NCBI GenBank assembly: GCA_016208425.1
Contig: JACQYA010000078.1
Coordinates: 1-64,000, forward strand
DNA from: Betaproteobacteria bacterium
GTDB taxonomy: Bacteria; Pseudomonadota; Gammaproteobacteria; Burkholderiales; Rhodocyclaceae
Length of the DNA: 64,000 nucleotides
Reading direction: 5' to 3'
In this document: positions 11,422-57,950 of the stretch, one piece after another
How the letters are laid out: every line of letters begins with the position of its first letter
Position numbering within the stretch: the first letter of the stretch is position 1
Notes under the pieces: generated by a model
Seen by the model: only the letters and a program-made list of their open reading frames with translations
Databases searched by the model: none
Told to the model about the DNA's origin: nothing
Translations under genes and position numbers: made by a program

Positions 11422-11437
11422 ATCGTTTGATTATACG

Positions 11438-12295
11438 TCATAGGCTCTCGAACCATGCCTTATCAATGCTGACGCGCTCAACAAGTTCGGTTTTTACGCC
11501 AAGCGCCAACTCTTTCAGTTTCTCTGCAAGTTCATCGCCGTCGACAAGGTCGATCGGTGGCGCACCGTCTCTTGTGGCTTCCTTGACAGCGGCGGGCGTG
11601 AAAGACCCCGTCGTAATGAACAAACCTTTGTCGGCACGGCCAACCATAGCACCACGAAAGTCACGAACCTCGCCGGCAGCAACTGAGCCTTTGTAACGCT
11701 TGCACTGGAAGAGAACGTGAAAGCTCATGAAGCCGTGAATACGGGCAATGCCTTTTCCGTCAATTCCGCCATCGCCCGTGCGGCCTGTCACCTCAACATG
11801 AATGAACCCGGATTCGCGCAAGATGCGCTGAACCAACCGCTCAAAGCCAGCAGGGTCGAGATTTTGAGTGAGGACGGCGGAAAGCTTGTCTTTCCATCCT
11901 TCCTCTTCAGACAATTCCCGTGCGGTTTCGTCAGGCGGTCGCTTCTTCGGGGCATCCTGTTTGTCGAGAGCGCGAACAAAACGAACGACCTCTGCGGAAT
12001 CTACAGTTTCAAGCGTCTTTGCTTTTTCCGTTAGCGACCAGACTCCACGGCTTGAGTTTTCGAGCAATCCGTACTTTCTGAGATACGTTCGCGCCCAGGC
12101 AAGGCGATACCCGACTTCGGTTTGACTGCTTTTTTCGGGGTCGTGAAGTTGCGCCAGAATCTCCTCTGGCAAGCCCGTGACCTCCACGGTCTTGGCGTAA
12201 ATCTCTTCAATTGATCCTGAGCCTCCGAGCTTCCGTATCGCCTCCAGAAGCGGGTTCATCAGATCGTCATATGTGGGGAGCGTGGTCATGGGCAT
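11438..12295 (-). CDS. mrr: Mrr-family modification-dependent restriction endonuclease
   Basis: 285-residue type IV restriction enzyme that cleaves methylated DNA. The N-terminal about 90 residues form the Mrr_N winged-helix domain (YDDLMNPLLEAIRKLGG), thought to sense modified DNA. The C-terminal catalytic domain carries the PD-(D/E)xK variant GDGGID at 174-179 and QCKRY at 197-201, so both catalytic motifs are present. Base composition is lower in GC than in the flanking genes. The stop lies 17 bp before the start of the kinase fusion, and an attC-like site lies just upstream of the start; both suggest acquisition. A start two codons downstream (MTTLP) is equally possible. Confidence 0.9.
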   Translation of the reverse strand: MPMTTLPTYDDLMNPLLEAIRKLGGSGSIEEIYAKTVEVTGLPEEILAQLHDPEKSSQTEVGYRLAWARTYLRKYGLLENSSRGVWSLTEKAKTLETVDSAEVVRFVRALDKQDAPKKRPPDETARELSEEEGWKDKLSAVLTQNLDPAGFERLVQRILRESGFIHVEVTGRTGDGGIDGKGIARIHGFMSFHVLFQCKRYKGSVAAGEVRDFRGAMVGRADKGLFITTGSFTPAAVKEATRDGAPPIDLVDGDELAEKLKELALGVKTELVERVSIDKAWFESL

Positions 12296-12313
12296 CGTGG
12301 TGTCAGTGGTAAC

Positions 12314-12382
12314 GTATAACGTTTGAATTAACCGGCTGACGCGGCTTTATCGCGCCAGTCCGTGTTGAATGACGTGTTGGAC
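12314..12382 (-). other. Possible integron attC site upstream of mrr
   Basis: Read on the minus strand, a 69-bp imperfect palindrome starts with GTCCAAC (an R'' core, RYYYAAC) and ends with GTTATAC (an R' core, GTTRRRY with one mismatch). The central arms GACTGGCGCG and CGCGTCAGCC pair around a short AT-rich loop. The conserved spacer words TTCATTCAA-like and TTAATTCAA-like resemble classical attC sites. The orientation places mrr as the next cassette after this site. No second attC is seen after mrr and no integrase is in the window. Confidence 0.5.
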
Positions 12383-12422
12383 GAAGCCGCTACGCGGAGG
12401 AACAAGCAACGCCAAGCTGGAT

Positions 12423-12671
12423 TCACAATTGATCTCCCACTCTGCCGATGGATTGTTCCGTCACGAACTGAGAGGTCATTTTACGATCTGATGTTACTTC
12501 TACTTTGTCAGATTGAATTGTAAGGCTTAAGTAGTGATTTCTAGTGACAAGCATTGTACGGCGTCTATATTGGGTTCGTGAGATGCGCCGAAGCTTGGAA
12601 AGAGAGTCGATCATGAGAGAGCGCGAACTGAGCTTCCCTCGGTATTTCATCTGCCAAAGGGCGAGTTTCAT
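12423..12671 (-). CDS. Small unknown reading frame before the attC-like site
   Basis: 82 codons, Lys/Arg-rich start (MKLALWQMKYRGK), no recognised family. It is AT-rich compared with its neighbours and ends 40 bp before the attC-like site, where a cassette gene would be expected. Its 5' end meets the decayed IS3 element, so it may be truncated. It could equally be a chance frame. Confidence 0.25.
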   Translation of the reverse strand: MKLALWQMKYRGKLSSRSLMIDSLSKLRRISRTQYRRRTMLVTRNHYLSLTIQSDKVEVTSDRKMTSQFVTEQSIGRVGDQL

Positions 12672-13558
12672 GCTACCAGTTTTTCCTGATGCTGCGCTCT
12701 GATCCAGTTCTCCAGAAACTGGACAGGCGACCTGTCGCCGGGGGTCGAATGCCGCCGTTTCCGGTTGTAGGAAACCTCGACGTATTCAAAGGCCGTCGCC
12801 TCGATTTCGGCGTGTGTGGCGTAGCGAGCCCCGTGCACCCGCCCGTTCTTGAAACTGTTGGACCGGCTTCCGGCCGGCGCGTTATCCCGGCAGTTCCCTT
12901 TTCTGCTCATCCGTCAGGTCATGCCGCAAGCCTCGAGCTTGCCCCGAAAGGCATGGCTGGCGTACCGGCCGCCCCGGCCGGGGCGGCGCGGCAGCCCCGG
13001 CGCCGGTTTCTTGCGGAACCGGGCCATGGCCGGCGCATCCGCCACGATATCCGCCGTCATGCGCGGCTTGGGCGGCCGGCCGGCGGCTTCGCGGTCGAAC
13101 AGATCGGGCACGATGGGCTGGTAGAGCCGGCCTTCATCGGCACGCAAGCAGGTTGTGCCCGGCGTCCGGACCTGGTTCGGCGCCGTCGGCGTGAAGTTTC
13201 CGGCAAGAAGGTTCTCCGCCACCGGCGGGCCGTGCTCCGAGCCCGCCGCCACCTTGTGGCGCCGCTTGTGGCGGGCGCGGATACCGTTGTCGCGCACCGG
13301 CCGCCCGGCTCGTCCCTCGCTGGCGGGGAAGCCTCTGGCCCGCGGTTCCCGCACCGTGCGCGGGCTGCCGTAGGCGCCTTTGGGTCCGGCGTGGATGGCC
13401 CGGATGAGCGCCGGCATCCGGCTGTCGGCCAACCGCTGGCAGTCCGGCGCCCCGCCCCGCTTCCGGGCCCGGTAGCCGCCGACGCTGACGCCGGGCACGC
13501 CACATATTTCGATCAGGGGAAACGACTTGCCTTGCCCGGCAACCCGGGCGTGCTTCAC
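12668..13558 (-). pseudogene. IS3-family transposase OrfB, interrupted by a stop codon
   Basis: Starts at a GTG overlapping the OrfA stop and reads the IS3 OrfB pattern: AYGSPRTVREPRARGF, then NGIRARHKRRHKVA, the integrase core, and a C-terminus FEYVEVSYNRKRRHSTPG. Between GMT and MSRKGNCRDNAP, where the family has Cys-Ser, a TGA occurs at 12914-12916, so the frame is broken into 12914-13558 and 12668-12910, both in the same frame. Many conserved residues are also changed (for example TGDITYL has become a non-matching segment), so the copy is old and inactive. Confidence 0.82.
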
Positions 13559-13844
13559 TGAACATCCCTTGCGGGGCGCGCCGCCGCTTTTTTAGGGTTT
13601 CGTTCTCCCGCTTGGGCCGGAGGTTCTCGGCGCGCGGCCTCGGGAGCCCCATCTCTTCCGGTGTCACTTCCTTGCCGCCAGCGCCGCCAAGCTCGCCTTC
13701 CGCCGCCGCCTTGACCCGGTTGCGCAAAGTCCGGTCGCCCGGCCCGAGCTCCTTGCAAACCTTGCTGGCGCTCTGCCCATCCTTGATCCGCTTGACCGCA
13801 AGTTCCTCGAGCCCGGTCGTGTAGGCCTGTTTCGGTATCTTCAT
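13555..13844 (-). pseudogene. IS3-family transposase OrfA, frameshifted
   Basis: Helix-turn-helix OrfA: KQAYTTGLEELAVKRIKDGQ, then TLRNRVKAAAEGELGGAGGK and a leucine-zipper-like RAENLRPKRENETLKK. The expected end AAA..ARDV occurs in another frame after a run of six A residues near 13588, suggesting a one-base loss there. The tail frame ends in TGA overlapping the GTG of OrfB. Confidence 0.75.
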
Positions 13845-13957
13845 TTCGTGCCTTCCAAAAGTGACCCAATTTTAGGCCACCCTCGGCAGACGAAATTTCG
13901 GGGGATGCTCAGAGGCTCGAATGCCGTAAAATCCTTCCCTTTACCCGGGGCGGACAC

Positions 13958-39825: not shown

Positions 39826-40473
39826 ATGAAACCGCAAGCGTTTGATCGAAGCGAGCATGTTTATAGAAACGAGGCCTTTGTCGAACTGGTCAAAGATGCG
39901 GTCAGGTTCTTTAATGGCACGCCTGTCCACACGCTTCCCCCACCAGAATCATTTCTTGGAACAGGGGTGTACGCGCTCTACTACACAGGTAGTAATCCTC
40001 TGTACAAACGATACGCCGAGCTAAACCGCCTTTCATACGGTTATCCCATCTACGTGGGCAAAGCCGTTCCCAAAGGATGGAGGCAAGCCCGCTCATCTGA
40101 CAACGCACTAAATCAATCTCGCGAACTAATCGGTCGCCTGCGAGAGCATGGAAGGAGCATTACCCTTGGTGCCGAACTGGCGCTGGAGGATTTCATGTGC
40201 CACTTCGTCATTTTTGAAGAGGAGGGCTCAGACATGATCAGCACGATTGAAGCCGCCCTCATTAAACTAAATAAACCGCTCTGGAATACTGCCGTTGATG
40301 GATTTGGAAATCACGACCCCGGAAGCGGTCGATACGAACAAGCCAAATCAGATTGGGATGTCATCCACGAAGGCAGGGCTTGGGCGAATAAGTGCAATGG
40401 GAAACATGCCGAAAAAAGCATCATAATTTCCAATATTCGCCTTCATCTCAAGAAGTTGGGGTCGGCGCAATGA
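39826..40473 (+). CDS. Eco29kI-like GIY-YIG type II restriction endonuclease
   Basis: 215-residue restriction enzyme with the GIY-YIG fold. The motif residues are seen as GVY (Tyr49) and YVG (Tyr76). Arg104, His108, Glu142 and Asn154 also fall at the positions that I recall as catalytic in R.Eco29kI. The core YPIYVGKAVPKGWRQAR is characteristic. Eco29kI cuts CCGCGG; whether this homologue has the same specificity is not shown. The stop overlaps the methyltransferase start by ATGA. GC content is far below that of its neighbours, as expected for a recently acquired system. Confidence 0.88.
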   Translation: MKPQAFDRSEHVYRNEAFVELVKDAVRFFNGTPVHTLPPPESFLGTGVYALYYTGSNPLYKRYAELNRLSYGYPIYVGKAVPKGWRQARSSDNALNQSRELIGRLREHGRSITLGAELALEDFMCHFVIFEEEGSDMISTIEAALIKLNKPLWNTAVDGFGNHDPGSGRYEQAKSDWDVIHEGRAWANKCNGKHAEKSIIISNIRLHLKKLGSAQ

Positions 40474-41639
40474 AAACTTTTGAGATTTTTTCAGGTGCAG
40501 GCGGTCTAGCAAAAGGCTTGGAGTTGTCAGGATTTGAGCATACAGCCTTCGTTGAGTTTAATAGGCATGCGTGTGAGTCGCTTTCTGAGAATTTCGACCC
40601 GACGCGAGTCTTCTTTGGCGACATAAAAGATTTTGATTTAGACAGCCTTGAGGATATTGACATTGTTGCAGGGGGGCCGCCATGCCAGCCATTTTCACTG
40701 GGTGGCAAGCACAGAGCCGACCAAGACAACCGGGACATGTTTCCATATGCCATACGTGCTATCGAAAAACTCGCACCAAAAGCATTTGTATTTGAAAATG
40801 TAAAAGGCCTGCTTCGCCAAACTTTTTCTGAGTATTTTGAATACATAATCCTCAGATTAAGTTACCCGGATTTTATGTCTGGTAATGACACCAACTGGAA
40901 AAGTCACCTTGATGAACTTCGCAATATTGGCAGCCTTTCTTATGCAGGGAAAAAATACAACGTTCAGTTCAAACTAATAAATGCCGCAGATTATGGCGTA
41001 CCACAGACACGAGAGCGGGTTGTGATTGTTGGAACAAGAGCAGACATCTCATTGCCTTGGTCATTCCCTATTGAAACACACTCAGAAGATAGGCTTCTCT
41101 GGGACATGTACGTAACGGGTGAATACTGGGTGCGCCACAAAGTACCTAAGCTATTGCAACCTGATTTAGACGCACCACTGAGAGAAAGAATATCTCGACT
41201 AAAAGGCAAGTACGGAATGTTTGAGCCAGAATTATTGCCATGGCAAACCATGCGGGATGCTTTATTTGATACGCCAGACCCAAAATCAGATCATGGAATA
41301 ATCGACCACATATTTCGGGATGGCGCGCGACCGTATCCAGGGCATACAGGTAGCGATTTCGATTGGCCGTCAAAAACAATCAAAGCTGGCGGGCACGGGG
41401 TTCCGGGGGGGGAAAACATGATCCGCTTCAATGATGGAAGCGTTCGCTACCTAACGACCTTTGAAGCAAAACGAATTCAAACTTTTCCTGATGATTTTGT
41501 CATTAAAGGCGCGTGGGGTGAGGCTATGCGTCAAATTGGGAACGCGGTACCTGTATTACTTGCAGAAAAAATAGGCTTAAAGTTAGCGGGGCAACTAAAA
41601 GCGTTTAGCCCGGAAATCAACGCGGGCGCTGCGCGATAA
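40470..41639 (+). CDS. DNA (cytosine-5) methyltransferase of the Eco29kI-like system
   Basis: 389-residue C5 methyltransferase protecting host DNA from the preceding nuclease. Motif I FSGAGG is at 7-12, the catalytic GGPPCQPFS has Cys72, ENV is at 109-111, QTRERV at about 180-185 and the C-terminal IGNAVP motif X at about 362-367. All core motifs are intact. The target-recognition region is about 190-330. It is AT-rich like the endonuclease gene and overlaps it by 4 bp. The pair lies between the SpeE-like and FAD genes of one conserved cluster. Confidence 0.94.
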   Translation: MKTFEIFSGAGGLAKGLELSGFEHTAFVEFNRHACESLSENFDPTRVFFGDIKDFDLDSLEDIDIVAGGPPCQPFSLGGKHRADQDNRDMFPYAIRAIEKLAPKAFVFENVKGLLRQTFSEYFEYIILRLSYPDFMSGNDTNWKSHLDELRNIGSLSYAGKKYNVQFKLINAADYGVPQTRERVVIVGTRADISLPWSFPIETHSEDRLLWDMYVTGEYWVRHKVPKLLQPDLDAPLRERISRLKGKYGMFEPELLPWQTMRDALFDTPDPKSDHGIIDHIFRDGARPYPGHTGSDFDWPSKTIKAGGHGVPGGENMIRFNDGSVRYLTTFEAKRIQTFPDDFVIKGAWGEAMRQIGNAVPVLLAEKIGLKLAGQLKAFSPEINAGAAR

Positions 41640-41697
41640 AGGCGCGTGGCGCCGCTTACTGACCGAAGAAAATTGCCCGGCAAAGAAGTGACTTTCC

Positions 41698-55899: not shown

Positions 55900-57950
55900 T
55901 TCTGCAAGCCGGGCGGCCTTGGCCGCTCGGCGCGCACTGGGATGGCGCCGGGGTCAATTTCGCGCTGTTCTCGGCAAACGCCGAGCGCGTCGAACTGTGC
56001 CTGTTTACGGGTGAAGCGGTATGCGCGCTCGCGCTTACCGAGTGCTCCGATCAGGTCTGGCACGGCTATCTGCCCGGTGCCGCGCCCGGTCTGGCCTACG
56101 CATATCGCGTTTACGGCAGATTCGATCCCGAAAACGGTTACCGTTTCGATTCTGGCCGCCTGCTGCTCGATCCCTACGCGCGCGAGCTGGCGGGTGAATT
56201 TTCCTGGCCGACCAGAGACGGTCTGAGATCTCGCGTCGTCGAAGAACATTACGATCAGGGCGAAGAGTGGTGCGACGTGTGGGGCGACGACGCGCCGCCG
56301 GCCACTCCCTGGGCCGATACCGTTCTCTACGAAATTCACGTCAAGGGCGCGACGCGCCGGCATCCGGGTGTACCCGAAGCGCTACGCGGCACCTACGCCG
56401 GTTTGGCCGCACCGGCGATGATCGCGCATTTGCGGCGCCTGGGCGTCACGGCGGTCAACCTGCTGCCGGTACAGCAGTTCCTCGACGAAGAGCGGCTGGT
56501 GCGCGGTGGACGACGCAACTACTGGGGCTACAACACGCTGGCCTATTTCGTCCCCGAGCCGCGCTACGCGGCGCGCGTGGGCGGGCAGCCGGCGATCGCC
56601 GAGTTCCGCGCGATGGTGCGCGCGCTGCACGCGGCCGGCATCGAGGTCATTCTCGACGTGGTGTTCAACCATACCGCCGAAACCGACGAAAGCGGCCCGA
56701 CAATCTCCTTTCGCGGCATCGACAACGTCAGTTACTACCGCTTGCCGGCCGACCATCCCGCCGGCTACGAGAACTTCACCGGCTGCGGCAACACCCTCAA
56801 CCTGGCCCATCCGCGCGTGCTGCAACTGGTCATGGACGCGCTGCGCTACTGGGTCACCGAGATGCACGTCGACGGTTTCCGCTTCGATCTGGCGGTGACG
56901 CTGACACGCGACAGCGCATTTCTCGCCGCACTGGCGCAAGATCCCGTGCTTTCCCGAGTCAAACTGATCGCCGAACCCTGGGATTTGGGGCCGGACGGTT
57001 ACCGGTTGGGACGCTTTCCCGCCGGCTGGAGCGAATGGAACGACCGCTTCCGCGACGATGTGCGCGCGTTTTGGCTGACCGGCGAGCGGGGCGCCGCCGC
57101 GTTGGCACGCCGCTTGTCCGGATCGAGCGACATCTTTTGCGACGCGAAACATGCTGCCGGACGCGCGCCGCAAGCCGGCATCAATTTCGTCGCCGCGCAC
57201 GACGGCTTTACGCTGCGCGACCTGGTGACGTATCAGCGGAAGCACAACGAAGCGAACGGTGAAGACAACCGCGACGGACACGACCACAACCACGCCTGCA
57301 ACTGCGGCTGCGAGGGCGAATGCGAAACCGACAGCCGCTCTCCGGCCATCCGCGAAACCCGCCGCCGCCTGCAACGCGCGCTGCTCGCCACGCTGTTCGT
57401 CGCGCAGGGCGTCCCCATGCTGCAAGGCGGCGACGAGCTGGGGCGCACGCAGAACGGCAACAATAACGCCTATTGCCAGGACAACGAACTGACGTGGCTG
57501 GATTGGCGGGAGTGCGGGGAGCGTGGCGAAGAGGCGCAGGCCGACGGCGGGCCGACCGGATTGTTTGAATTCGTCTCCGGACTGATCGCCTTGCGGCGCC
57601 GTTTCCCGCAACTGCGGCGCACGCGCTGGCTGACCGGAGAACCTCCGGCTACCGGGCGCGCCGACACGGTTTGGCTGCATCCGGCCGGGCATGAAATGCG
57701 CGTTGCCGACTGGGAATCGCCGGCTCTGGACGCTTTCGGATTACGCCTCGCGCCGCTGGCGGCCGGGCGCGGAGAAAACGACCTGCTCTGCCTTTTCAAT
57801 CGCGGCGCCGGGGACGTTTCCTTCCAGCTTCCGGGCGGCGGTTGGTCGCAGATCTGCGATAGCGCCGCCGGGGCGCCTTTCGCGCCCGCACCCCGCGTAT
57901 CCGCTAGTTCCGTGGCGGCGCGTAGCGTGCAAATATTGACATCGGATTAG
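55887..57950 (+). CDS. glgX: Glycogen debranching enzyme
   Basis: 687-residue GH13 isoamylase-type enzyme that removes short branches from phosphorylase-limited glycogen. It has a CBM48 N-terminus ([21 protein letters not shown]) and a catalytic barrel with [10 protein letters not shown] (Asp334), LIAEPWDLG (Glu363) and [15 protein letters not shown]. The loop after [12 protein letters not shown] is unusually Cys/His-rich ([11 protein letters not shown]), longer than the common NxSWNCG form. It starts inside glgB and ends 6 bp before malQ. Confidence 0.95.

Follow-up and report, generated by a model that had tools for sequence, protein, structure and literature searches.

IntI, the integrase of integrons, acts on attC sites by binding their folded bottom strand, and it joins cassettes at G|TT. 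The boxes of the site, RYYYAAC (R'') and GTTRRRY (R'), lie in inverse orientation to each other. The R' consensus GTTRRRY is also given in PMC10127599, and PMC2727003 defines attC as an imperfect hairpin that has extrahelical bases on its R''-L'' arm and a central spacer left unpaired. Chromosomal integrons are described as reservoirs of anti-phage systems (Darracq et al. 2025, as cited in PMC12409362), attC sites without a nearby integrase are known as CALINs (IntegronFinder 2.0, PMC9024848), and the joining of cassettes to genomic sites is known as attG insertion (Loot et al. 2024, as cited in PMC12901181 and PMC11023631). Published work already covers CALINs, attG insertion and the occurrence of defence genes in chromosomal integrons. 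Among the papers listed by literature searches, none dealt with Mrr carried as an integron cassette, judged by title and the opening of the abstract, and this is weak evidence that no such report exists.

The window analyzed here, a stretch of 64,000 nucleotides from a betaproteobacterium, carries an mrr gene that is a new, well-delimited example of a defence gene as a cassette. Like class 1 cassettes such as aadA1, it has R'' and R' boxes, spacer words, a hairpin whose R''-L'' arm carries unpaired bases, and a gene on the matching strand. Unlike them, it has an attC of a chromosomal-type family (GCGCGATAAAGCCGCGC core), the R' box GTTATAC and a collapsed mrr attC. Defence-type genes occur as cassettes, as in the integrons of Darracq et al. 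2025 (as cited in PMC12409362), but here they are a predicted Mrr enzyme and a predicted Eco29kI pair, lie outside a recognizable array and are betaproteobacterial. As in published attG insertion, cassettes are found joined to genomic sites of a non-canonical kind, close to chromosomal genes or within them, although the junctions here are natural ones from one assembly and the action of IntI is presumed. The window attC resembles a CALIN in having no intI on its contig, whereas the sites here are single and IntegronFinder 2.0 by default reports CALINs from two sites up (PMC9024848).

Structure of the attC site

A sequence-only reading of the window had proposed that a palindrome upstream of mrr is an attC site with the core sites GTCCAAC and GTTATAC on the minus strand. 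Both core sites are present as claimed, and the site has the following parts:

12314..12382 (read 12382 to 12314), minus strand: attC site, 69 bp, identified from sequence, fold, covariance models and a word test
12376-12382, minus strand: R'' box GTCCAAC, from sequence reading
12314-12320, minus strand: R' box GTTATAC, from sequence reading

Direct reading of the minus strand from 12382 to 12314 gave GTCCAAC ACGTCATTC AACACGGACTGGCGCG ATAAAGC CGCGTCAGCCGGTTAATTCAAAC GTTATAC, which comprises, in order, R'' GTCCAAC, a spacer with terminal TCATTC, the stem, the loop ATAAAGC, TTAATTCAAAC and R' GTTATAC. The R'' box matches RYYYAAC and the R' box is off GTTRRRY at one base (T for R). Crossover at the R' box would be expected between G12320 and T12319.

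Folded as single-stranded DNA, the site had an energy of -11.8 kcal/mol, and 2 of 200 shuffles folded equally well (z -2.43). Two bases, A12363 and A12359, were unpaired, and the orientation of the site toward mrr is fixed because both sit on the R''-L'' arm. The fold also has the unpaired central spacer of the published definition.

A covariance model of our own, rather than that of IntegronFinder, was built by joining seven class 1 attC sites at the arms. An earlier alignment of 12 class 1 sequences was set aside because its arms were out of register by one; seven sequences were retained, and aac6Ib, qnrVC1, dfrA14, arr3 and dfrA27 were left out. Positions 12382-12316 on the minus strand ranked first of the four window matches at E<=10, with 16.6 bits and an E of 0.08 that is weak alone. 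The held-out aac6Ib site was recovered in two copies (27.8 and 18.5 bits), and qnrVC1, dfrA14, arr3 and dfrA27 had no listed match, indicating that the class 1 model is narrow. Across the bacterium's own genome it listed only two sites, and 12314-12382 was not among them.

The second model, likewise our own, was trained on nine betaproteobacterial sites, five at the mrr loci of relatives and four in the own genome, with the window site excluded. The held-out site scored 64.4 bits with an E of 3.8e-14. Moreover, the word test, which combined the R''/R' boxes with TTCAA in both arms, had 12314-12382 as its single window match and none in 200 first-order Markov shuffles, although it was devised after the site was seen and is hence fitted to it. 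The nine-site score, the unpaired R''-L'' bases and the word test bear out the palindrome as an attC in the proposed orientation. The nine-site model had further window matches at 41603-41671 on the plus strand (36.3 bits, E 5e-7) and at 57067-57140 on the minus strand, the latter a weak attC-like match (17.5 bits, E 0.03).

The mrr gene and the ends of its cassette

The gene next to the site and its surroundings on the 3' side are as follows:

11438..12295, minus strand: mrr, 285 aa, with Mrr_cat (110.6 bits) and Mrr_N (67.4 bits); PADLOC mREase_IV, 86.5 bits
11424..12319, minus strand: mrr gene cassette in its present form; 5' end TTATAC common to relatives in unrelated surroundings, 3' end a collapsed attC
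11424..11436, minus strand: probable remnant of the attC that belonged to mrr, as judged against L022 and L063
9739..11421, minus strand: PP2C phosphatase-protein kinase gene adjoining the mrr cassette, from family search and comparison with relatives

With both the Mrr_N and Mrr_cat domains present, the protein is a predicted type IV (modification-dependent) restriction enzyme. No close Mrr was found among solved structures (PDB), where matches were weak (E>=0.03). The attC does lie upstream of mrr, at a distance from the start codon of 18 bp rather than the 19 bp given previously. The cassette is AT-richer than its surroundings, as had been noted, with a GC of 0.54 vs. 0.637 for the window.

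Of the mrr relatives in named genomes, 139 were confirmed and 80 retained; the closest belong, as labelled, to different betaproteobacterial groups. The homology of the window DNA to the mrr regions of L020, L022 and L063 was 94.3, 93.7 and 90.9%, respectively. It spans window positions 12322 to 11431-11433 and ends there on both sides. The left end common to the relatives starts CGTTATACGTYAC and is preceded by unrelated sequences; L024 is without the TTATAC start. In L022 and L063, GTATAAC and a full attC lie directly 3' of mrr. This R'' box is complementary to their 5' GTTATAC at 7/7 bases, as expected if the attC of a circularized cassette is assembled from its two ends; the window copy has no such 3' site. 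Furthermore, mrr is flanked by attC on both sides in L021, and the order in L063 is mrr-attC-gene-attC-gene, which we read as a three-cassette array. The suggestion that mrr arrived as a gene cassette thus held up: it is a discrete unit with fixed ends, and its boundaries are common to L020, L022 and L063 in unrelated surroundings.

By comparison with these relatives, the window site is the end of a preceding cassette, fused through its R' (GTTATAC) to the 5' end of the mrr cassette, a fusion that explains the unusual R' box. The attC that the sequence-only reading placed upstream of mrr is real, but it belongs to the previous cassette, and mrr's own attC has collapsed. The site was also considered as an attI (AAACGTTATAC is in common with L015), an idea that was dropped because the relatives showed TTATAC to be the end of mrr's cassette.

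No intact attC follows mrr in the window. The sequence 3' of the gene is TGACGTATAATCAAACGATATGCCCC, the final ATG of which is the start of the PP2C-kinase gene. What remains of mrr's attC is 13 bp, GTATAA-TCAAACG, located two bases before the chromosomal kinase gene, at G|AT and the kinase ATG. Probably GTATAA is R'' and TCAAACG is L' or L'-like, the intervening hairpin having been deleted. At the equivalent place L020 has GTATCAAGCGGAAAAG, and the 3' end of mrr is degenerate in other ways in L023 and L024. Among the eight closest mrr loci (the window, L020-L025 and L063), an attC after mrr was found by the model in three (L021, L022, L063), seen by eye in one (L025) and lost or degenerate in four (window, L020, L023, L024). 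The window mrr is descended from a cassette, yet is not a complete cassette itself, and it looks immobilized.

In the wider set of 80 mrr loci there were 16 attC matches at E<=0.1, every one on the mrr strand (11/11 without the five training sites). An attC was present within 1 kb of mrr in 9/80, including four cyanobacterial loci; in the other 71, no attC match at this threshold lay that close to the gene. Because attC sites occur near mrr in these wider loci and both L082 and L040 have a fragment of IntI upstream of the gene, Mrr homologues were probably cassettes more than once. In the cyanobacterial loci (L077, L078, L088, L096) the attC-like match is on the mrr strand and 721-730 bp downstream of the gene, as if one cassette held mrr and a second gene. 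The fragment in L082 (4354-4618, Oscillatoria sp. CS-180) is divergent and 383 bp upstream of the mrr homologue, a first-cassette layout.

The preceding cassette and the IS3-like element

Two features lie on the other side of the attC:

12383..12626, minus strand: 3' remnant of the preceding cassette, with repeats on C164 and C144
12627..13869 (far end approximate), minus strand: degraded IS3-like element, with rve_2 in 12668-12910 and homology to copies on C92 and C9

The preceding cassette was recognized by its repeats, 12376-12448 at C164:190-260 (95%) and 12375-12437 on C144 (82%); the C164 copy precedes attC sites, and the C144 copy is next to one. It is interrupted by the element at 12627-13869, whose right end was set at 12627 by homology to the copies on C92 and C9. 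A search for inverted repeats gave no clear IS ends. The layout had been described as a cassette array cut by an IS3 element. The interruption was confirmed, but the array is one of two readings, because cassettes in the own genome also seem to lie outside arrays. The small frame reported beside the attC is likewise present, at 12423-12671 (82 aa), but was rejected as a cassette gene since it starts inside the IS3-like element and had, as a protein, no match better than E 0.035 among the loci compared. It is an IS-cassette chimera.

Integrase and attC sites in the genome

An intI gene was looked for elsewhere in the genome, as had been suggested, and was found on contig C143 (224-1165). It encodes 329 aa, is open throughout and scored 499 bits with TIGR02249 vs. 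a curated cut-off of 265. When intI, attI and array were sought together, contig C143 was found to end 184 bp upstream of intI, and the window is on another contig. A 5' fragment of a second intI is present at C165:80-199; its upstream sequence resembles that of the C143 gene, and ATA replaces ATG.

The attC was to be given up if its covariance score was non-significant and the genome held nothing similar. Instead, the nine-site model gave 13 matches at E<0.01 in the own genome, four of which are training sites. At least one match at E<=0.01 was found in 33 of 41 genomes (the own genome and 40 relatives), comprising 24/25 of the family, the own genome included, and 9/16 elsewhere in the order. 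Since positives are so common in the family, the survey is context and not a negative control. Small genes that we take to be toxin-antitoxin-like lie between or after attC sites on C9 (L107 1798-2613) and C134 (L126), and a cassette gene of ~430 codons (C195; L122 40-1365) directly precedes the C195 attC.

A probable second restriction cassette

The second attC match in the window adjoins a restriction-modification pair:

39826..40473, plus strand: Eco29kI-family restriction endonuclease (PF09517, 238.3 bits)
40392..41639, plus strand: C5 cytosine DNA methyltransferase (PF00145, 205 bits)
41603..41671, plus strand: second, degenerate attC, found by the nine-site model; 79% to the L063 mrr attC over 58 bp

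This attC follows the pair, its R' is not recognizable, and the stop codon of the methyltransferase falls in its loop. The genes that flank the pair and the attC are ~1.9 kb apart here, whereas in G016 and G018 they adjoin each other, no more than a few bases apart. The endonuclease is likely to be part of a second cassette.

Location of the cassettes

There is an even chance, in our estimate, that IntI inserted the cassettes found outside the integron at secondary, attG-like genomic sites, mrr at G|AT before the kinase ATG, and that the IS3-like element came later. The C195 attC (L122 1370-1438) ends CCACG|GTAGACGTGAAAGCC inside an oxidoreductase-like gene, where it is joined at CACG|GTAGAC; a copy on C92 of the same assembly is uninterrupted, TACACG|GTAGACGTGAAAGCC, with TACACG|GTAGAC at ~1501 of L141. 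However, 78 bp of the host gene are absent on the left and only the right junction is clean, which makes the insertion an imperfect one; moreover, the two copies, both from one assembly, may represent paralogues or different strains. The C29 attC ends ACG|GTAGGA shortly before a chromosomal gene, but the target sequence was not seen by eye before that gene in four relatives. The Eco29kI pair and its attC were placed between two genes adjacent in G016 and G018, although this site is without a clear R'. For the right junction of C195 an uninterrupted counterpart is available, and the restriction-modification pair has one at the level of genes. For mrr no empty site was found: 12 relatives carry other sequence before the kinase, often a gene that is presumably a transporter, which is here on another contig. 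The mrr-kinase junction is G|AT, and GNT and GAT triplets are reported as minimal secondary-site cores in PMC10127599. In the closed relatives G018 and G023, the attC matches listed (14 of a total of 34 and 11 of a total of 14, respectively) are in five separated places each.

Such scattered sites in closed genomes, as well as the clean insertion junctions at other places in the own genome, argue against the proposal that the locus is the remnant of a larger former array (CALIN) that was reduced to a single attC and a single cassette by the IS3-like element and a rearrangement of the chromosome. In favor of a remnant, the element interrupts the preceding cassette, the transporter-kinase neighbourhood is broken in the own genome, and several attC sites are near contig ends; its chance is put a little short of even. 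Attachment at secondary sites and a broken array are about as likely as each other. It is very improbable that the palindrome arose by chance or is an ordinary terminator beside a vertically inherited mrr. While the fold is only 2.4 sd better than shuffles and the class 1 model gave an E of 0.08, the clade model gave 3.8e-14, the exact cassette boundaries are common to unrelated contexts, and IntI is present in the own genome. Rfam, searched over 11500-13500, returned nothing except one match by chance, which also speaks against this reading.

Discussion

The locus is, with high confidence, an attC that ends a preceding cassette, followed by a horizontally captured mrr cassette whose own attC later collapsed. 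The attC at 12314-12382, which looks complete, closes one cassette and its R' opens the next. The mrr cassette (TTATAC...mrr...attC) was captured horizontally and spread among betaproteobacteria, and the hairpin of its attC was later lost, leaving 13 bp directly before the PP2C-kinase gene. With the hairpin gone, IntI would no longer be expected to excise mrr alone. The attC anatomy, the cassette boundaries, the genomic IntI gene and the relatives with a complete attC can be read from the DNA itself; from these we infer that IntI was active in the past, that mobility was lost and that Mrr acts in restriction.

Tentatively, and as less likely than not, a broader proposal can be made that restriction genes leave integrons and become fixed host genes. 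IntI would drop single defence cassettes at attG-like sites, within chromosomal genes or next to them, where they would become locked once the attC hairpin was lost. The window mrr (GTATAA-TCAAACG|ATATG) and that of Rhodocyclaceae L020 (GTAT-CAAGCG|GAAAAG) would be two independent lock-ins, and the Eco29kI pair, with its decaying attC, would be an older one. The mrr locus records base by base how a type IV restriction gene moved between betaproteobacteria as a cassette. Moreover, the natural junctions, one with an uninterrupted counterpart in the same assembly, provide material on how cassettes may escape integrons and become permanent defence genes.
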